This document shows positions 1,584-33,499 of a stretch of 33,836 nucleotides of DNA, piece by piece. The notes beneath the pieces are model-generated. The model was not told the DNA's origin, did no database searches, and saw only the letters and a list, made by a program, of their open reading frames with translations. The position numbers and the translations under genes were made by a program. The DNA comes from a virus, in IMG/VR virus record IMGVR_UViG_3300031951_000686, positions 1 to 33,836 of that record; one strand, written 5' to 3'. Every line of letters begins with the position of its first letter. Within the stretch, counting starts at the first letter, position 1.

Positions 1584-3152
1584 CTACACTTCGTGTATTT
1601 TTTCCACTATAAACGAACTATCTTTGTCGCTCACTGAACCGCAAAATATCAAATTATTACCTTCATACATGATATACTTGTATTTATCTCGCACTTTTGG
1701 AAATACTATTACGCTATCTAAAAGGCATGTATCATCTTCTATAGTTAGAAATGACATTAATTGTCCTTTGGATTCTCCCTTTGTGATAGTATAATCTGAT
1801 AATCTTTGTATATTTGCCACTATGCAGATATCTTTTCCCTTTTTTCCATTCACAATTTCTTTACAAGTAGTATTTGCTGCTGAAGTGTCTGATGTTTCTA
1901 CCCTAGTCATACTTACTGGGCATCCAAGATATTTTACTTCTTGATCTATAACCCAGCTTGGGTCATCCTCAAGATCATACGGTGGATTAACTAATAAATG
2001 TATCTCATTTTCTACAGCCTGCTTACGATCTATTTTGTGCGTACCGCCGCCTTCCTTTTTTGTTGGTGCTAAATCTTTTAGGCAATTAATAAAATTAGCC
2101 CACTTTTTATCCTTATAATGCTCTACGGCCCAAGATTGTTCTGCCTTAGTTAATGTTCTATAGATTTCATAGTCATACAAAGCTTTATTTCTTGTTACAT
2201 TGCTATTCTTGCTTCTAAAGAATCCTATAGAAGCAAGAGCCTTAAAAGCGGTAGAACTTATTTTTGATGACACGAATAATAAAATTTCTAGCCAAGTGAA
2301 ATTATTGATATTTTTATCTAGTTCCTTTTCAGCTTGATCTATTGCTTCTATTAATTTGTCACCAGTTGCACCTGTAAGAGATTTGATGTCTTTGATTCCA
2401 AAGTATATTTTACCGTCTTTTATGTTGAATTTTGTTTGAAAGTTTGACAAATTAGGAGTTTTGGTTTCAATATCAAAAAGCTTTGCCTCTGAAATCAATT
2501 CATATACCTCTTTTTGAGGATCTTGTTTTTCATTAGCATAATATAAGTAGGATAAAAAGAATTCTTGAGTGTTATGAGCCTTATAATAGGCACTCCAATA
2601 TGAGCATACTGCATATGAAACGCTATGCGATTTATTAAATGCGTATCGTGCAGATTTTTCAATCCATCCAAAGATTTGCTCTGCGTCTTCCTTAGAAACG
2701 GTTCCTACACGCTCTGCACCAGCTATGAATGATTTTTTGACTTCATTCATGAGATCAGCCTTTTTCTTTCCAATCGCCTTACGAAGAACGTCAGCCTCTT
2801 GTAGATTGAATCCAGCAATTTTCTCTGCTATACGCATGGATTGTTCTTGGTATACTAGAACTCCATAGGTTGGTTTTAATATTTCTTCCAAGGCTGGATG
2901 TAAATATGTTACTTCTTCCCTGCCATGTTTTCTGTCTACATAATGCTGTGTCATACTTTTTCCATCTACAAAAGCTTTCAAAGTTCCCGGTCTAATGATG
3001 GCAATTAATGCAGATAATTCTTCTATGTTAGTTGGTGCCACCTTCTTGGACCAAGACTTTCCAAGATTACTTTCTAACTGGAAGATGCCTTTTGTTTTGC
3101 CTTCGGCAAATAGTTTCCAAGTTTCTGCGTCATTATAATTGATATCAATCAT
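1584..3152 (-). CDS. dnaE: DNA polymerase III alpha, C-terminal half of a split DnaE (fingers to OB domain)
   Basis: This 522-residue protein starts at ATG 3152, overlapping the endonuclease VII stop as ATGA, with AGGA just upstream. It begins where the N half ends in a DnaE alignment: GIFQLES (22-28), AIIRPG (51-56), DRKHGREE (73-80), PTYGVLVYQEQ (94-104) and LRKAIGKKK (123-131) are fingers-domain signatures. YAFNKSHSVSYA (170-181) is the site that in cyanobacterial DnaE holds the split intein; here it is uninterrupted. The last ~85 residues resemble the OB-fold domain. It lacks the palm aspartates, so it cannot polymerise alone and must pair with the product of 4846-6480. Together the halves total 1066 residues, slightly under a usual DnaE. 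Confidence 0.92.
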   Translation of the reverse strand: MIDINYNDAETWKLFAEGKTKGIFQLESNLGKSWSKKVAPTNIEELSALIAIIRPGTLKAFVDGKSMTQHYVDRKHGREEVTYLHPALEEILKPTYGVLVYQEQSMRIAEKIAGFNLQEADVLRKAIGKKKADLMNEVKKSFIAGAERVGTVSKEDAEQIFGWIEKSARYAFNKSHSVSYAVCSYWSAYYKAHNTQEFFLSYLYYANEKQDPQKEVYELISEAKLFDIETKTPNLSNFQTKFNIKDGKIYFGIKDIKSLTGATGDKLIEAIDQAEKELDKNINNFTWLEILLFVSSKISSTAFKALASIGFFRSKNSNVTRNKALYDYEIYRTLTKAEQSWAVEHYKDKKWANFINCLKDLAPTKKEGGGTHKIDRKQAVENEIHLLVNPPYDLEDDPSWVIDQEVKYLGCPVSMTRVETSDTSAANTTCKEIVNGKKGKDICIVANIQRLSDYTITKGESKGQLMSFLTIEDDTCLLDSVIVFPKVRDKYKYIMYEGNNLIFCGSVSDKDSSFIVEKIHEV

Positions 3153-4184: not shown

Positions 4185-4858
4185 TATTTTCTCACAAATA
4201 GTGAGTCTCCAGATATTTCAAAAAACTGATATTCTCGGCTGGTTTCAGTTAACCCGTTCTTATTCAAAAAATTAGCTATATCATCGAATGATGTCTCTCC
4301 TTCATACATTATGTAGTTTTTAGACCATTCGAAGATAGTCGCCTGCAATGTATCGATCATACTATTACAACCAATAAATACATTATATTCTGCACCTTGT
4401 ACATCCATAAAGATTGCATCTATTGAATCAACATTGAATCTATTACAAAAATCATAAAGGCTTATAGACTCTACATCAAAGGTCTGATAAACATTATTGA
4501 CTTTGAAAATTTCTTTCATCCCTTTACCGGGTTTTAAAATAGAACCTTGCCCAGTATTTTGGCAATTTTGTCCTACAAAAGTATCTTCATCATTTATAGT
4601 GTCAAGTGGATAATATCTATTGAAAGTTACAGATCCGCTAGTATCTGTTACTGCCATATGATATGTATGAACTTTATCATGTTCAGCAAACTTGTTGTTC
4701 AGTATTGAAAAGTTAGTAGGATCTGCTTCAAAGGCATATATATTAGCGTCTGGCCAAATAGAAATTATGTCAAATATATCACCACCACGATGCGCTCCAA
4801 CTTCAAAAATATTTTTCAAATTTGGAAAATTCTTTTTTACATTTTCTAAGAATAACAT
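4184..4858 (-). CDS. FkbM-family SAM-dependent methyltransferase
   Basis: The 224-residue protein has a class I methyltransferase fold: IFEVGAHRGGD (17-27) is the SAM-binding glycine loop, YAFEADP (41-47) the acidic strand-2 motif, and IFMDVQGAEYNV (149-160) the DVxGxE signature of the FkbM family. FkbM enzymes O-methylate sugars and other small hydroxyl groups. Its ATG lies inside the last codons of the polymerase N half (13-bp overlap), and the AAGGGGGG tract before it encodes that half's C-terminus. It has no obvious link to replication. It may have been captured there, or may work with the glycosyltransferases nearby. Confidence 0.85.
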   Translation of the reverse strand: MLFLENVKKNFPNLKNIFEVGAHRGGDIFDIISIWPDANIYAFEADPTNFSILNNKFAEHDKVHTYHMAVTDTSGSVTFNRYYPLDTINDEDTFVGQNCQNTGQGSILKPGKGMKEIFKVNNVYQTFDVESISLYDFCNRFNVDSIDAIFMDVQGAEYNVFIGCNSMIDTLQATIFEWSKNYIMYEGETSFDDIANFLNKNGLTETSREYQFFEISGDSLFVRK

Positions 4859-6480
4859 GTTTTCCCCCCTTTTATTATATCTTGAATTTTCATAATTTTA
4901 TCTAGTAAATTGATTCCTAGAACGTCAAACTTTACATGACCCAGTGCCTCTAAGTCTGCCATTTCAAGTCCGGCAACCTTTTCTGATGATCCTTTTTGTT
5001 TTACCATTGGGCATACTTTTTGTAAAGGCTCTGCGGATATAACCACTCCAGCAGCATGTTTACCCTGAGTTTTAAAAGTACCCTCTATCTGTATGGCTTG
5101 CTCAAAATACTCAGCATACTCTCCCTCAAGTTTTCCATCTTCTAATATTCTACAGAAATCTCTTAAATCATCAGAGTTATTGATCAAAGCCCACTTGATA
5201 ATAGATCGATCTTCGTCATCCATTTCTGCTAACTGATCTGAGATTCTTGCCTCGTCTGGTATGCAGTTACTTATAGCATTCATTTCAGAGAATGAGCAAG
5301 CCTCATTAACACGCAAAACTTCCTTAATAGCACTCTTTCCTTGAAGTCTGCCGAATGTTAACATTTGGCTAACTCGACTGCTACCATACTTATCTTTTAG
5401 ATATGCAATAATTTCATCACGTTTAGTACCGGGAACATCTATATCAATATCTGGTAGAGATATATGATCAGCACTATTTCGTCCAGCATTATAAAATCTT
5501 GCAAATAGAAGGTCAAACTCTATTGGATCAATCTTTGTGATACCAATCAAATATGAAATTAAACAACCTGCGGCAGATCCTCTACCGGGGCCAGATAGCC
5601 AATCCATGTCATTAACGTACTTGATAATATCACGCACAATAAGAAAATATCCGAATAGATTAGCATCTTTGATAACGTCAAACTCTTCCTTGAATCTACT
5701 CAAATACTTCTGCTTATCTTCTTCATTTGATACCTTGTTTTGATCTATTAATAGATTCTTCCAGCCAATACGACATAGTTCTTTGAGATAATCTTCTTCT
5801 GATGCCCCATTTGGACATTCAAATTTAGGCAACATTGGTTTACTGAGAATATCATAGTCTTCGCACTGGTCATAAATCTCTTTTAGTTTAGATGTATCTA
5901 GACTCTTGGATTCATCCTTATCTTTGACATAAAAAGAGTCTTGCATGAAATACACTAATTTATCCATATGCTCTTGTGGATATTTTGAGTCTACATTAAT
6001 ACCACCATTGTTGTCTGGCCTAATGCTTTTCTTTATTTTTGGTAGAGTAGTCTTCATGTCAGAACATAATAATACTCTGTGAAGCTTTGCGTCTTTTCTA
6101 TCAGTGTAATAACTAATAGGCATTGATTCAGTAGGAGCATTGTATACACTAATCAAATTTTTACTAATATCTATATTATCATATTGCTCTGGCAATTTAC
6201 CATTTTCATCTAATGATGAAACCATTTCAATTAGCTCGTACCAACCGTCTTTATTTTTGGCAAAAAGTGTAGCAAAATCAAATGAGCATCCAATGATTGG
6301 CTTTATGCCCTGCTTCTTGCAGGCTTTATAAAAAGCAACCGCACCAGATAATGTCTTATAATCACAAATGCCACATGCTGGATATCCATTTTCCTTGCAT
6401 TTTTGGGCTAATTCAGCTGGCTTCGAATAACCTTTTAGCAAACTGTAATGAGTAAAATTCTTCAATGGGAACCAATTCAC
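4846..6480 (-). CDS. dnaE: DNA polymerase III alpha, N-terminal half of a split DnaE (PHP and palm)
   Basis: The 544-residue protein starts with GTG at 6480, preceded five bases away by AAGGAG. Residues 1-70 align with the DnaE PHP domain (HYSLLKG, GAVAFYKACKKQGIKPIIGC), but the metal-binding HLHxHS and TDH motifs are lost (PLKNFT, CDY). GPGRGSAAG (297-305) and LPDIDID (342-348) are palm signatures; D346 and D348 correspond to E. coli D401 and D403. HVKFDVLG supplies the third catalytic aspartate, D519. The protein stops about 25 residues later, just before the fingers that begin in 1584-3152. No intein motif is present at the end, which reads GGKTCYS. A sigma70-type promoter lies directly upstream. 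Confidence 0.92.
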   Translation of the reverse strand: MNWFPLKNFTHYSLLKGYSKPAELAQKCKENGYPACGICDYKTLSGAVAFYKACKKQGIKPIIGCSFDFATLFAKNKDGWYELIEMVSSLDENGKLPEQYDNIDISKNLISVYNAPTESMPISYYTDRKDAKLHRVLLCSDMKTTLPKIKKSIRPDNNGGINVDSKYPQEHMDKLVYFMQDSFYVKDKDESKSLDTSKLKEIYDQCEDYDILSKPMLPKFECPNGASEEDYLKELCRIGWKNLLIDQNKVSNEEDKQKYLSRFKEEFDVIKDANLFGYFLIVRDIIKYVNDMDWLSGPGRGSAAGCLISYLIGITKIDPIEFDLLFARFYNAGRNSADHISLPDIDIDVPGTKRDEIIAYLKDKYGSSRVSQMLTFGRLQGKSAIKEVLRVNEACSFSEMNAISNCIPDEARISDQLAEMDDEDRSIIKWALINNSDDLRDFCRILEDGKLEGEYAEYFEQAIQIEGTFKTQGKHAAGVVISAEPLQKVCPMVKQKGSSEKVAGLEMADLEALGHVKFDVLGINLLDKIMKIQDIIKGGKTCYS

Positions 6481-16323: not shown

Positions 16324-16832
16324 AAATTCCTCAGTCTGTTAATACTCTTTTTGTTTGATGTAAATGATGCAGATCTAGAAGATAAGGTTTGAGATTCTAC
16401 TTCTGCATCTAGGTTTATCTGCATTTTTTCCTTTTCATCATCAATCTTTTGTTGATGCTTGGCTATTATCTTTTCGGCCTCTGGATTTACCTTGTATCCT
16501 CTGCCATTTTGAATGCCAATGACGAGTAGTTTGTCAAAATCTTTAGACTGTATGGCGGATAAGATTGCTTCTTCGCTGTATTTCTTTTTTAGCTGAACGG
16601 CTGCACCGTGCTGCTTTTTCCAGAGCCAGTGTAGAGGATCTCCCTTTGTCCAGAACTTATATGACGGCTTGCCTAGATTCAGCTTTTCTGATCTTCTAAT
16701 CACAATATACTCAGCAATATATGACTCAAATGTGCAATATTCACCAGTGTGAATATGTTTATATTTATGAGTTTCTGACCATTGTTTTTGATATTCTTGA
16801 CTAAAAAGCTCTGGTTTATCTTTCTTTTGCAT
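16320..16832 (-). CDS. Unknown protein
   Basis: The 170-residue protein is basic and not recognised. Its N-terminal half is rich in aromatic residues (HKYKHIHTGEYCTFESYIAEY, PSYKFWTKGDPLHWLWKKQH). Residues ~118-138 form a charged, probably coiled helix, and the tail is Ser- and Arg-rich (LSSRSASFTSNKKS). No enzyme motif or membrane segment is seen. It overlaps both neighbours by a few bases and belongs to the run of small genes feeding into recA. Confidence 0.6.
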   Translation of the reverse strand: MQKKDKPELFSQEYQKQWSETHKYKHIHTGEYCTFESYIAEYIVIRRSEKLNLGKPSYKFWTKGDPLHWLWKKQHGAAVQLKKKYSEEAILSAIQSKDFDKLLVIGIQNGRGYKVNPEAEKIIAKHQQKIDDEKEKMQINLDAEVESQTLSSRSASFTSNKKSINRLRNL

Positions 16833-17244
16833 AGTTATATATCAATGCTTCTTCAAAACAGTTTTCAATTGTATCTTTATTTTCTAATTCTTTTATTAGC
16901 TCTGGAATTAACCAAGTGGTCTTATTGACAATATTATCTTTCAATATACCTATAGTAAATGTTTGTTTAGTCGATTGACCAAAAGATCCTAAAATAGACT
17001 TGGCTAAGTATACACCATCTGAATTGTTTGTGTCAACTTCAATAGAGTGTGACCTATATTGTAATCCAACGTTTTTAATACCTAATTTATGAGTGATGCA
17101 ATGTTCTTTTAGTTCCATCCACTCAGTATAATCTTTTAAGTATATTTCTGAATCATTACTTAAGGTTGCTCTGATCCACGTTTTATACTTGTCTTTTTTG
17201 TATTCTTCAAGCCAATCCGAATATGATGTTATGAAAGTTTTCAT
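16816..17244 (-). CDS. Unknown protein
   Basis: The 142-residue protein is soluble and mixed alpha/beta by composition, with no motif I recognise. It starts at ATG 17244, forming ATGA with the upstream stop, and overlaps the next gene by 17 bp. The N-terminus (SYSDWLEEYKKDKYKTWIRATL) is strongly amphipathic. It is kept as a gene because the frame is open, tightly spaced and coupled to both neighbours. Confidence 0.58.
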   Translation of the reverse strand: MKTFITSYSDWLEEYKKDKYKTWIRATLSNDSEIYLKDYTEWMELKEHCITHKLGIKNVGLQYRSHSIEVDTNNSDGVYLAKSILGSFGQSTKQTFTIGILKDNIVNKTTWLIPELIKELENKDTIENCFEEALIYNYAKER

Positions 17245-17528
17245 TTTATCTTGGTAACACAGTTAGAGTGATTCTTTTTTATTGGTAATCTTTTTTGATC
17301 TATCATAGAGGATGCATTTTCTGTCATTATTGTTGCACCGCTTTGACGTACAAACTGCTGTTCGACTATGGTTTTTGGTGCTGAAACCTTATTTTTTTTT
17401 ATGTGTTTTTCTATAGCTCCAGAAGCTCTATCTAAATCTGTAGCTATTTGTTCTATTGATTGCCCAGCTTTAAACTTTTCTTCAACATAAAAAACTTCAG
17501 CTTTTCCAAGCGGTCCTGTTTTAGCCAT
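17241..17528 (-). CDS. Small helix-turn-helix-like phage protein
   Basis: The 95-residue protein opens MAKTGPLGKAEVFYVEEKFK and has a likely HTH in AGQSIEQIATDLDRASGAIEKHIKK (22-46). Similar small proteins are widespread in large aquatic phages, usually without a known function. The second half is less ordered. It may bind DNA or act as a transcription cofactor. It is coupled to its neighbours by an 8-bp overlap upstream and ATGA downstream. Confidence 0.6.
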   Translation of the reverse strand: MAKTGPLGKAEVFYVEEKFKAGQSIEQIATDLDRASGAIEKHIKKNKVSAPKTIVEQQFVRQSGATIMTENASSMIDQKRLPIKKNHSNCVTKIK

Positions 17529-24012: not shown

Positions 24013-24330
24013 TTACCTCACGTTAGTGGTCTTTGAATGATATGGGCATACGGTCTTATGACCGTCGCCCTGTACAATTATTCCAGTTCCCTTGCAAATG
24101 CACTTTGCTGGATCTGGATCTGTATCCACCACGGGTTTTGGAGATGGATCAGACTTAAATACTTCTTTTTCTGCACTATTGAATGCAGTTTTGCACTGTT
24201 CTTGCCACTCCGTTACATAAGAAGAGTACATATTTGTTATATCTTCTGGATTGACACAAAATATTGGCTGAGTACATCCAGCAAGAAACATACAAATTAC
24301 TAATGCTATATAATTTTTCATTTTATGCAT
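24013..24330 (-). CDS. Lipoprotein with a CxC...CxxH zinc-like motif
   Basis: From ATG 24330 the protein has 105 residues. MHKMKNYIALVICMFLAGC is a lipoprotein signal with lipobox L16-A-G-C19; a shorter start at 24321 also works. The mature part ends with CICKGTGIIVQGDGHKTVCPYH, in which C77, C79, C95 and H98 could bind zinc much like half of a DnaJ-type cysteine-rich repeat. A lipoprotein in a probable lysis block could be an outer-membrane spanin or a superinfection-blocking protein. No ribosome site is obvious; it overlaps the upstream stop and may be translationally coupled. Confidence 0.7.
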   Translation of the reverse strand: MHKMKNYIALVICMFLAGCTQPIFCVNPEDITNMYSSYVTEWQEQCKTAFNSAEKEVFKSDPSPKPVVDTDPDPAKCICKGTGIIVQGDGHKTVCPYHSKTTNVR

Positions 24331-24556
24331 TTTTGTCAAAGTAGTATGCTACATCATCAAATCTATTTGTTAATCTAGTTTCATTAGCTGTGTATGAGTA
24401 TGTTTTCTCGTACTCAAATGGACTAACTAGTGCTTGATAACTACCACTGCCAGCCACTGGAGCGCCTCTCCAGCAATATACGACCGCAGAACCGTTCTTT
24501 ATATTGTCAAACGACGCTGTTGCACTTGTTACTACATCTGTTGTTGTTACTGCCAT
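24323..24556 (-). CDS. Small unknown protein, possibly virion-associated
   Basis: The 77-residue protein is rich in Thr, Ser, Ala and Tyr (MAVTTTDVVTSATASFDN..., YSYTANETRL), polar and probably beta-rich. It has no membrane segment. GGAG lies seven bases before the ATG. Its composition resembles small phage structural proteins more than lysis proteins, but no motif supports a firm call. Confidence 0.55.
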   Translation of the reverse strand: MAVTTTDVVTSATASFDNIKNGSAVVYCWRGAPVAGSGSYQALVSPFEYEKTYSYTANETRLTNRFDDVAYYFDKNA

Positions 24557-24574: not shown

Positions 24575-25492
24575 TTAAAATTGATCTTTGAGTGTCCAAG
24601 TTACTTTTCTTGGTGGGAAACCATCTACATCGCTAAAAACCCAAGATCCATTTGATGCTAACATTTCTGCCGCATCTCTTTCTCTAATCCAGAAACTGCC
24701 GTCAGGTTGATCTAAACGTTTTTCTCCGTTATTCCATCCGCCCCAAGAATTTTGGACTAAGAATAATGTTTCGTTATATATTTCATGGGTATCGTCCATA
24801 CCTATCCAAGCCATCGCGTGCGCCCAAGAACCAGACCTTGCTGCTATACCATTTTTATCTCTTCTAGAGCTAAATCCAGACATAGAGCATACGCTAATAG
24901 AATAACCATTAGCTAATGCATCTCTGGCTTGATCTACTGTGTTAATAAGACTTATGGTTTGTACTTGATGTTTCTTCGCAGAATGTACTAGTTCTTGTGG
25001 TACGCCAGTTCTGCCCCATTTTCCTCCGACAGCACTATATTGAGATAGATCGTATTCTCCATACTTTTGACGAAGTAATATTCCGCCAGTTTCATTTACG
25101 AACTTGGCCGCACCTGCACAGGTCATTCCTTCTCCACCATGACCACGGGAACCGTAGATGCCTTCCGTGGCACCACGGGCAACAAAGTCTTCTCGTTGTC
25201 CACCTATAATTTCACAGCTTCTTGTGATATCTACGGCATTTCGCGTAGCATGTGAAACACAATCTCCTTGGAGTTGTCTTTCAGAAGGACCAAAAGATGG
25301 ATCAAACTTTAGTAAATTTTTAAATGGTAAGGCTAGTTTACCTTTGCCGCTACCATACAAGTCATAAGCCGCCACACCAAACAAAGGGTGAGGAAGCTTC
25401 CCCAAAAGTTTATCTAGTTCTTTTGGGTCACAATATGATCCTACAAAGCCTTCTTTATAGGCTTTTAACAAATCTTTTGGTGCTTTAAACAT
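24575..25492 (-). CDS. Papain-family (C1-like) cysteine peptidase
   Basis: From ATG 25492 the protein has 305 residues. QLQGDCVSHATRNAVD (C78 in the nucleophile helix, with an upstream Gln for the oxyanion hole), SGSWAHAMAWIG (H225) and LVQNSWGGWNNG (N248) give the Cys-His-Asn triad of papain-like peptidases; NSWGxW is the family hallmark. No signal peptide or cell-wall-binding repeat is visible. It lies directly after the holin-like gene (one base between stop and start), the usual place for an endolysin, so a peptidoglycan peptide or protein substrate crossing the membrane through the holin is possible. It could instead be a virion protease. An upstream TTG at 25525 would give 11 more residues. 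Confidence 0.8.
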   Translation of the reverse strand: MFKAPKDLLKAYKEGFVGSYCDPKELDKLLGKLPHPLFGVAAYDLYGSGKGKLALPFKNLLKFDPSFGPSERQLQGDCVSHATRNAVDITRSCEIIGGQREDFVARGATEGIYGSRGHGGEGMTCAGAAKFVNETGGILLRQKYGEYDLSQYSAVGGKWGRTGVPQELVHSAKKHQVQTISLINTVDQARDALANGYSISVCSMSGFSSRRDKNGIAARSGSWAHAMAWIGMDDTHEIYNETLFLVQNSWGGWNNGEKRLDQPDGSFWIRERDAAEMLASNGSWVFSDVDGFPPRKVTWTLKDQF

Positions 25493-25493
25493 A

Positions 25494-25715
25494 TTACTTT
25501 GAATTATCCTTAGCCCATTTGACAATAGTGTTAATAACTACTACGACAACTGGGACCACTAAAGCTGACATATTGCCAAGATCTACTTTTGCTAGATTTT
25601 CGCCAACGTATGTTAATACGGCAGCTAAACCTACTAATAAAGCATTCTTACCAACGGAAATTAGATCTGTGCTATTTAAAGCAAAAGGACCAGAACCATA
25701 TTTTACTTCTGACAT
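25494..25715 (-). CDS. Holin-like small membrane protein
   Basis: The 73-residue protein has two hydrophobic segments (NALLVGLAAVLTYVG near 23-37 and ALVVPVVVVVINTIVKW near 51-67) joined by a short turn, and a lysine-rich C-terminus (KWAKDNSK). That is the plan of class II holins, which open the inner membrane at a set time. AAGGAG lies eight bases before the ATG. The PAS protein gene ends two bases upstream and the peptidase begins at once downstream. The role is inferred from topology and position. Confidence 0.68.
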   Translation of the reverse strand: MSEVKYGSGPFALNSTDLISVGKNALLVGLAAVLTYVGENLAKVDLGNMSALVVPVVVVVINTIVKWAKDNSK

Positions 25716-25717
25716 TG

Positions 25718-26311
25718 TTATATCTCCTTGAGTGTTGAAATACTGACTAAAAATCCTCCATGCTCTTTTTCGTTTATCCTATACGGAAATCCGATTAACT
25801 TAACCGTTTTTCCGTCTACTGTTTGTACTGTTTTGGCAAGTTTTCTGTTCATCTCTAAACAGGATTTTAGTTCATCAAATACTTCTTCTCTTTGATCTTC
25901 TTGTACATAATTCAACCAATCATAACCATCTACACTGGTGATTACATCTTGTGTTAATTCGTAAAAATTATTATTAGTCCATGTGAGCCTTCCACTGTCA
26001 TCTATCTCAAACAGAGCAACATCATTGTAATGTAATGCTGCTTTAGTTCTTTGTTCTATTATCTTTTGGCGTTTTTCCATCCTATTGATAGTAGAGCGAA
26101 GATCTATCACAGTATCTTTTAAACTGTTGCCACCATTTGTCGTTAACTCTTTTCTAATAGTCTCTATAGACTTTGTTATTTCTTCTTGTCCTTTGACAAA
26201 TTTTAGAGTTGGCTTTATTACTTTGACCCAAGCCAGACTAAAAAAAGTTCCTATTGCACCAAAAATACTACATAGTAGTGGTATATTTTGTGGATCTTTT
26301 ATGTCTAGCAT
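25718..26311 (-). CDS. Membrane-anchored PAS-domain protein
   Basis: The start at ATG 26311 is decided by GGAGGT nearby, giving 197 residues. Residues ~9-31 are one membrane segment, 41-90 a charged coiled coil (TINRMEKRQKIIEQRTKAAL), and 95-195 a PAS domain: DVALFEIDDSGRLTWTNNNF, DWLNYVQEDQREEVFDEL, then the KTVKLIGFPY and GGFLVSIS strands. PAS domains bind cofactors or small ligands or mediate dimerisation. There is no kinase, cyclase or HTH output domain, so the output would be through the membrane segment or a partner. It sits just before the holin-like gene. No ligand can be assigned. Confidence 0.78.
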   Translation of the reverse strand: MLDIKDPQNIPLLCSIFGAIGTFFSLAWVKVIKPTLKFVKGQEEITKSIETIRKELTTNGGNSLKDTVIDLRSTINRMEKRQKIIEQRTKAALHYNDVALFEIDDSGRLTWTNNNFYELTQDVITSVDGYDWLNYVQEDQREEVFDELKSCLEMNRKLAKTVQTVDGKTVKLIGFPYRINEKEHGGFLVSISTLKEI

Positions 26312-26335
26312 TGTTACCTCCAAGTTGAAAGATAG

Positions 26336-26370
26336 GATAAAGTGCCTCAAGTTTCCAAGAGGCACTTATC
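26336..26370 (-). terminator. Strong hairpin after the probable virion gene
   Basis: GATAAAGTGCCTC (26336-26348) pairs with GAGGCACTTATC (26359-26370), forming 12 base pairs with one bulged A around a 10-base loop. It begins 21 bases after the stop codon of the 26392-27009 gene. The following bases on the minus strand are only weakly T-rich, so it may be a partial terminator or an RNA-stabilising 3' hairpin that limits read-through into the PAS/holin block. Confidence 0.65.
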
Positions 26371-26391
26371 CATAAAAACGAATGACAATAA

Positions 26392-27009
26392 TTATTCGTT
26401 GCTATCTTTAGCCTTGTAGGCAACATTGCGTGTTGGTAGTGCTGCTCCAAACCTGTAAGTTAATTCACCGGGTACTGCTCTACTTGTTGATGCAGCGTCA
26501 TCTACAGCTGGATAATTACCACTTGTAGCAACGTAAGTAACAGCAGTACCAGCACCAGTGCCTCTGGTAAGACCGGGGAAATTACCGCTAGATGGCACAG
26601 CAAGAACATTGAACTCCTTAGTAGCATAAGTGCCAACTTGAGTAGTCTTTAGATTCTTATTAATTACAGCCTCTGTAGCACCACCGGGAATGGTTAAAAG
26701 AGTTGAAGCTGAACCGTTGATTTTACCAGCGTTGGTATCACCAGCGGCCATTAATAAAAATTCACTACCGGCAGGTGGAGTATAAGCAAATGTGCCAGCA
26801 CTCTTTGCTTTTGTAACACCGTTAGGATCTGTATAATTTAGCGGTGCGGATGGTGTATCCTGCACCACTTTAGTACCATACTCTGGATTTGTGCCTAAAT
26901 TAGTTCTTAGGGTTAAATCTGTTAGATTTTCAGACACATCGCCAGCCTGTAAAACAACGCCGCCGTCATTTCTGTATGGATTGCTATTATTAGCTTTTGT
27001 GGATGCCAT
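26392..27009 (-). CDS. Probable virion structural protein (capsid decoration-like)
   Basis: The 205-residue protein is rich in Gly, Ala, Thr, Ser and Asn, almost cysteine-free, and beta-prone (GTFAYTPPAGSEFLLMAAGD, VTYVATSGNYPAVDD). That is typical of head-decoration or surface virion proteins. It has its own leader of about 90 bases, a strong AAGGAG site and a hairpin at the 3' end, so it is probably made in large amounts from its own transcript. Its base composition is GC-richer than the neighbours. No homology to a named capsid protein is claimed. Confidence 0.62.
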   Translation of the reverse strand: MASTKANNSNPYRNDGGVVLQAGDVSENLTDLTLRTNLGTNPEYGTKVVQDTPSAPLNYTDPNGVTKAKSAGTFAYTPPAGSEFLLMAAGDTNAGKINGSASTLLTIPGGATEAVINKNLKTTQVGTYATKEFNVLAVPSSGNFPGLTRGTGAGTAVTYVATSGNYPAVDDAASTSRAVPGELTYRFGAALPTRNVAYKAKDSNE

Positions 27010-32455: not shown

Positions 32456-33499
32456 TCATACGCTCTTATCAAAATGTACTCTATTTACGCGAATAAACTC
32501 TGCACATTTAGGCAAATCTTTTAGACTATCTGCACCAAGATATGCACAGGTACTACGTAGTCCTCCTAATATATCATCTATTACATCAATTGCATCACCT
32601 TTATATGGAATAGATTTTACTCTACCTTCACTTGCACGGTAGTTTTTAATTCCACCATACTTTTCTTGTGCTTCGTGAGAACTCATGCCGTAGAACTTTA
32701 AAACGCGACCTTCACTGGTCCAAGTCCAATCGCCCTCGCATTGTTCTGTTCCAGCAAGCATACCACCAAGCATGACAAAATCCGCTCCAGCAGCAAAGGC
32801 TTTTGCAACATCGGAGGGAGTTCTGCAACCGCCATCTGCACAAATTCTACCTAGGTGCTTATCTTTAGCTTTTAAACCATGTGCAGCATGAGAGCATTCA
32901 TCTATTGCAGAAAGTTGAGGATATCCCACTCCTGTCTTTAGTCTCGTCGTACATGCCGATCCCGGTCCTATTCCAACCTTAACAATATCAACGCCGCCGT
33001 GTAAAATTAATTCATGAACCATTTCTGGAGTGCATACATTGCCAGCCATTATAATTGTTCTAGCCCCAAATTTTTCTCTTATCATTGCACAGTGATCTAC
33101 AAATTGATCGGTATATCCGTTTGCAACATCAATGCATATATTGGGGACTGCTTCAATAGAATCAACAAGTTTCTTGAGTTTTGTGATTTCATCATCACTA
33201 ATTCCCATGCTATACCAAAATGTGTTAAGATTTTGCATATTTAAAATGTAATCGCTTACATCGTGGTGCTTATGTAAGCACGTTATACAATCTCTCTTAG
33301 ACAATGATTCGGCCATTTGAAAAGTGCCAGTTGTATCCATATTGGCTGACATTATTGGAATGCCGCTCCACTCAAGAGAAGAATGGAAAAACTTAAACGT
33401 TCTTTTTAAGTCAACCAAGGACCGTGATGCGGCTCGGGATCGCTGTGGAACGAGTAAGACATCATCGAAATCTAGTTTTGTGTCATTATTTATGTTCAT
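32456..33499 (-). CDS. guaC: GMP reductase
   Basis: The 347-residue protein equals E. coli GuaC in length and tracks it closely: LDFDDVLLVPQRS, PIMSANMDTTGTF, CIDVANGY, IVKVGIGPGSACTTR with catalytic C183, CADGGCRTPSDVAKAFAAGADFVMLGGMLAG and FYGMSS. The CBS domains of IMP dehydrogenase are absent. It reduces GMP to IMP with NADPH, redirecting guanine nucleotides to adenine or other purines. GGAG lies six bases before the ATG. The promoter must lie upstream of, or read through, the terminator just before it. Confidence 0.93.
   Translation of the reverse strand: MNINNDTKLDFDDVLLVPQRSRAASRSLVDLKRTFKFFHSSLEWSGIPIMSANMDTTGTFQMAESLSKRDCITCLHKHHDVSDYILNMQNLNTFWYSMGISDDEITKLKKLVDSIEAVPNICIDVANGYTDQFVDHCAMIREKFGARTIIMAGNVCTPEMVHELILHGGVDIVKVGIGPGSACTTRLKTGVGYPQLSAIDECSHAAHGLKAKDKHLGRICADGGCRTPSDVAKAFAAGADFVMLGGMLAGTEQCEGDWTWTSEGRVLKFYGMSSHEAQEKYGGIKNYRASEGRVKSIPYKGDAIDVIDDILGGLRSTCAYLGADSLKDLPKCAEFIRVNRVHFDKSV

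Follow-up and report, generated by a model that had tools for sequence, protein, structure and literature searches.

A membrane-tethered PAS-domain protein encoded next to a putative holin in uncultured T4-like phages

The window, by which we mean the whole 33.8-kb stretch of DNA analysed here, is an uncultured virus record with a T4-like gene set, including ribonucleotide reductase subunits, a UvsX-type recombinase, a DnaB-like helicase, a primase and a split DNA polymerase, the last of these being seen as ORFs at 1584-3152 and 4846-6480 with three other ORFs in between. It also carries a dehydrogenase gene (32456-33499; phrog_9582) that resembles IMP dehydrogenase and is a possible auxiliary metabolic gene. 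The PAS gene and the neighbours described next all lie on the minus strand. A 197-aa PAS-domain protein is encoded at 25718-26311 (ATG at 26311, stop at 25718-25720) and is followed, after a gap of 2 nt, by the gene for a 73-aa holin-like small membrane protein (25494-25715, ATG at 25715), whose AAGGAG ribosome site (25724-25729), read directly from the sequence, lies within the last PAS codons. An earlier note on this DNA had rightly placed the PAS stop two bases before the holin-like gene; the range 25494-26311 that it gave for the PAS sensor in fact covers both genes. The papain-like peptidase that it named as the next gene is indeed found there, at 24575-25492. This gene likely starts at ATG 25492, 1 nt past the holin-like gene, and most relatives begin at the equivalent ATG. 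The peptidase model matches C1A papain-like proteases, the best being xylellain (E 3.5e-9), and with Q84, C89, H236 and N259 invariant the modelled protein is a C1A papain fold with a complete Gln/Cys/His/Asn active site. On the other side, a 205-aa protein of unknown function (26392-27009) is the usual, though not constant, upstream neighbour of the PAS gene. Between it and the PAS ribosome site lies a strong RNA hairpin (26335-26371; z -6.0 in the window), which is kept in all 11 loci looked at despite differing arm sequences and is a possible terminator or processing site parting the cassette from the upstream gene.

The PAS protein consists of a single N-terminal TM helix, a long cytoplasmic helix and a C-terminal PAS domain, and has no output domain within its 197 residues. 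The TM helix (residues 10-28; 26228-26284) is flanked by acidic residues on its N-terminal side and basic residues on its C-terminal side. The AlphaFold2 model (pLDDT 81.9) places helices at residues 9-59 and 62-94, and the near-invariant linker motif KELTTNGGNSLKD (residues 54-66; 26114-26152) sits at the break between them. The PAS domain (residues 97-196; 25724-26023) was delineated by this model, by PDB fold matches and by residue conservation: residues 99-193 of the model follow the strand and helix order of the PAS fold, a sheet of five strands plus helices, the PDB matches listed for it are PAS domains (best Foldseek E 4.8e-6), and comparison with PDB PAS domains gives VIA Z of 12-13.4 over residues ~97-195. 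At the sequence level, 12 of 23 relatives match Pfam PAS models (PAS_9; best 8e-6), with the window protein itself reaching E 0.005-0.1, under the cut-offs. Thus, by its fold and the Pfam matches of its relatives, the C-terminal domain belongs to the PAS domain superfamily, and the earlier description of a membrane segment with a PAS domain lacking an output domain stands; where that description had a coiled coil, the model has a long helix. The half of the protein that comprises the membrane helix and the TNGG segment is weakly matched by two PHROG families of unknown function, 1009 and 9869, the match to 9869 falling at the linker-motif region; with 103 and 98 positions, respectively, these families are too short to contain the PAS domain.

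Across 80 homologues, seven residues of the PAS domain show no variation (W111, N113, W132, S150, C151, P176 and Y177), and E55, N59, G61, S63, K65 and D66 are likewise fixed in the linker. C151, predicted on the long helix preceding the third strand, is the sole invariant cysteine or histidine of the domain. As the 80 homologues show neither a LOV motif nor an invariant PAS histidine, there is no support for reading the domain as a flavin-LOV domain or as a haem domain like that of FixL. The PAS gene evolves under purifying selection (dN/dS 0.05-0.15). Comparison of the two flanks of the TM helix shows the C-terminal one to be the more basic in all 80 homologues, and this charge bias leads to a predicted N-out/C-in orientation in which the PAS domain faces the cytoplasm, opposite to the arrangement in the T4 holin T.

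The 73-aa protein fits the holin pattern of a small protein with one to three TM segments and a charged C-terminus, which here is basic. Hydropathy within its family shows one or two segments depending on the homologue, with two in the nearest long genome. A scan of the longest close relative (161 kb) for small ORFs with two hydrophobic segments points most clearly to the 73-aa gene, the few other candidates looking like antisense or very short ORFs. The 73-aa protein matches no holin family in Pfam or PHROGs, and the case for its being a holin comes from what takes its place. A second family of ~60-aa proteins, showing no relation to it in hhalign comparisons, matches three PHROG families, all annotated as holins (12, 11 and 7 of 19 members; best 4e-5). 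The two types hardly ever meet: of the 101 distinct neighbourhoods of the peptidase, the 73-aa type alone occurs in 77 and the ~60-aa type alone in 23, and both occur together in just one. This mutual exclusion, a near-complete replacement by a family of PHROG holins, indirectly supports a holin function for the 73-aa protein, which we take to be a putative holin. On the peptidase tree, holin swaps form three independent well-supported pairs and run nearly always in the expected direction; with so few pairs the direction is not significant (sign test p 0.25).

We recovered 93 distinct PAS homologues (80, and 13 from a later search), all of them on uncultured viral contigs. No homologue was found in 84,980 bacterial or archaeal genomes, and tblastn searches of GenBank phages with the PAS protein, its N-terminal half, the holin-like protein and the peptidase found no relatives. 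The gene after the PAS gene is holin-like in 93 of 93 cases, a count inflated by strong long-range synteny within the clade, such that these loci are not independent. It belongs to the 73-aa family in 92 of them and to the ~60-aa family in one (L347). In the first 80 the match to the 73-aa family adjoins the PAS gene in 79 and overlaps it in L276, owing to an upstream start codon; among the later 13, the 73-aa type comes next in 12, the remaining one being L347. The gap between the two genes is mostly 1-2 nt across homologues. Each of nine long records carrying the PAS gene has one copy, and the two long records from the lineage with the ~60-aa holin type yielded no homologue. Hence a PAS gene lying far from any holin, which the earlier note had named as evidence against its idea, was not seen among the 93 homologues. 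The PAS-holin-peptidase order that it expected to be conserved holds for the first two genes; the peptidase is missing from the neighbourhood of ~11 PAS-holin loci, and at the five of these whose neighbourhood was read completely, ribonucleotide reductase comes straight after the pair. The PAS gene therefore tracks the holin, with the peptidase outside the core. The surroundings of the pair vary on both sides: upstream there is either a protein of 205-245 aa or a glycosyltransferase-like protein, and downstream there is the peptidase, extra membrane genes together with the peptidase, or ribonucleotide reductase directly. The adjacency is therefore not merely a by-product of block synteny. At one locus (L198, 344-1838) the PAS gene lies in two ORFs and the peptidase in several pieces, the holin-like gene being intact; this breakage is either decay or sequencing error.

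Most of what is known about how lytic phages time lysis comes from a small set of models, namely lambda, T4, P1 and 21, in which the trigger is holin build-up or superinfection. The best reading of the present locus is that the PAS protein is a membrane-tethered cytoplasmic regulator or partner of a holin. We see an even chance that in these uncultured T4-like phages the two proteins form a module for lysis control, made of a holin and its membrane-tethered cytoplasmic PAS partner. In such a module, the 73-aa membrane protein would act as the holin, and the PAS protein, tethered beside it by its one TM helix, would bind it. The PAS domain, probably a dimer, would probably bind a small molecule or report redox state, and a change in this domain would reach the membrane through the long helix, with its conserved TNGG break. 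The state of the PAS domain would then set whether the protein restrains or releases the holin, i.e. holds or helps it, with an effect on lysis timing as the outcome. On this view, the moment at which the host bursts may depend on something that the phage senses within it. We put forward only tentatively, as possible but short of probable, the stronger form of this proposal, in which a cytoplasmic PAS sensor gates the holin at the membrane, the lysis time is set by a metabolic, redox or ligand signal of the host, and the arrangement serves two unrelated holin types. If true, retention of a sensor domain next to holins throughout this clade of T4-like phages would mean that lysis can be linked to conditions within the host. 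As a small module of two genes with natural variants, i.e. two holin types, presence or absence of PAS and a BhlA-like substitute, it is testable in E. coli. A literature search found no paper joining a PAS domain with a holin or antiholin in the sense of lysis control, and in this respect agrees with the earlier note, which knew of no lysis-timing system built in this way. A parallel in terms of domains is VqmA of vibriophage VP882, likewise a phage-encoded PAS domain controlling host lysis; however, VqmA is soluble, a PAS-HTH transcription factor that works via qtip, and neither sits in the membrane nor acts on a holin (PMC8284805).

Evidence on the position before the holin comes from loci that lack the PAS gene. 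The presence of PAS changes nine times on the peptidase tree, with at least five of these changes forced by well-supported branches, and in six distinct cases the place is filled by a 91-109-aa protein with a TM helix and a coil but no PAS domain. One such protein has matches to Holin_BhlA (E 0.001, short of the curated cut-off) and to phrog_2429 (1.6e-5). The BhlA holins have a single TM segment (PMC9527704); in PBSX, XhlA works together with XhlB (PMC6834076, PMC10630273). These observations hint that the position before the holin is a place for a protein that partners it. These same substitutes, together with a gene order like that of PBSX xhlA-xhlB-xlyA (PMC6834076, PMC10630273), are what speaks for an alternative in which the PAS protein is a BhlA/XhlA-like accessory holin subunit that makes the pore with the 73-aa protein, its PAS domain serving only for dimerization and not for sensing. 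However, the two slot fillers are unrelated: homology between the N-terminal half of the PAS protein and the BhlA-like substitute (A6) was rejected, the profile comparison giving 0.6%, and no Pfam match links the PAS protein to BhlA or XhlA. Many PAS-domain residues are moreover invariant, C151 among them (80 of 80 homologues), and we regard this alternative as unlikely. PBSX XhlA-XhlB-XlyA and SPbeta BhlA/BhlB do resemble the present arrangement in that a single-TM protein is encoded beside a holin or holin-like protein, and the peptidase that most loci here carry may correspond to a hydrolase (PMC6834076, PMC10630273, PMC9527704), but they have no PAS domain, and the sequence link to them is weak, running only through the alternative occupant of the slot.

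The genomic setting bears on a further alternative, namely that the pair has nothing to do with lysis and is a membrane sensor with a small partner that reprograms the host envelope or metabolism, the two having been kept together by general synteny. The cassette is located in the nrd/replication region beside nrdA, on the strand opposite to the tail and structural block, and is not a classical late lysis cassette; neighbouring genes are syntenic in long blocks. Further, papain-type peptidases are, to our knowledge, not established peptidoglycan hydrolases, and since enzymes of this family cleave ordinary peptide bonds, action of the peptidase on the cell wall is doubtful. Against this stand the changes of flanking genes on both sides while the PAS and holin-like genes stay together, and the replacement of the 73-aa protein by PHROG holins; on this evidence an envelope or metabolic role is improbable. 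The T4 late promoter TATAAATA was considered and rejected, as it shows no excess over chance. Phage lysozyme (PF00959) is absent from 12 records, and among the matches listed for 56 selected proteins of the 161-kb relative there is no lysis enzyme, only a RIIB homologue; these results, like the position of the cassette, weigh against the proposed lysis-control module.

Turning to the T4 system itself, holin T and the antiholins RI and RIII offer a likeness to the proposed holin-PAS partnership, in that there too a membrane-anchored protein of a T4-like phage has a globular domain regulating holin triggering (PMC12162936, PMC11413866). In T, however, this domain lies in the periplasm and belongs to the holin itself, whereas here it is on a separate protein of no sequence relation to T and is predicted to be cytoplasmic. 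A reading of the PAS protein as a class III holin of the T kind, with a periplasmic globular domain, is very hard to credit: T does have a TM helix, a bridge helix and a globular domain (PMC12162936), and T4-type holins are listed when viral models are searched by fold (Proteus phage phiP4-3, E 0.012; Stubb, E 0.052), but the charge bias in 80 of 80 homologues predicts the opposite of the N-in/C-out topology of T, the ~9 residues preceding the TM helix leave no room for its N-terminal amphipathic helix, and homology to T was rejected as 11 collected T homologues show no profile similarity (hhalign 0.2%). T is not among the PDB fold matches listed, which carries no weight against T likeness.

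Several other features of these genomes were observed. In L203 (5007-7049) and L197 (5087-7165) inteins split the peptidase exactly at the catalytic cysteine, which becomes the first residue after the intein; the intein of L203 contains Hint and LAGLIDADG domains detected by Pfam. L166 (4221-6263) and L127 (6773-8728) probably also have inteins, seen only as peptidase ORFs enlarged by the size of such an insert. The 161-kb T4-like relative (L160) encodes, on its minus strand (16721-17488), a trypsin-like protease that appears to have a signal peptide. Finally, a lipoprotein-like or secreted protein with the motif CxCxGTGxxxHGDGHxTxCPxH is encoded in the window (24013-24339), in L076 (11911-12645) and in L051 (10932-11456); distant relatives have it joined to a thioredoxin-like domain.
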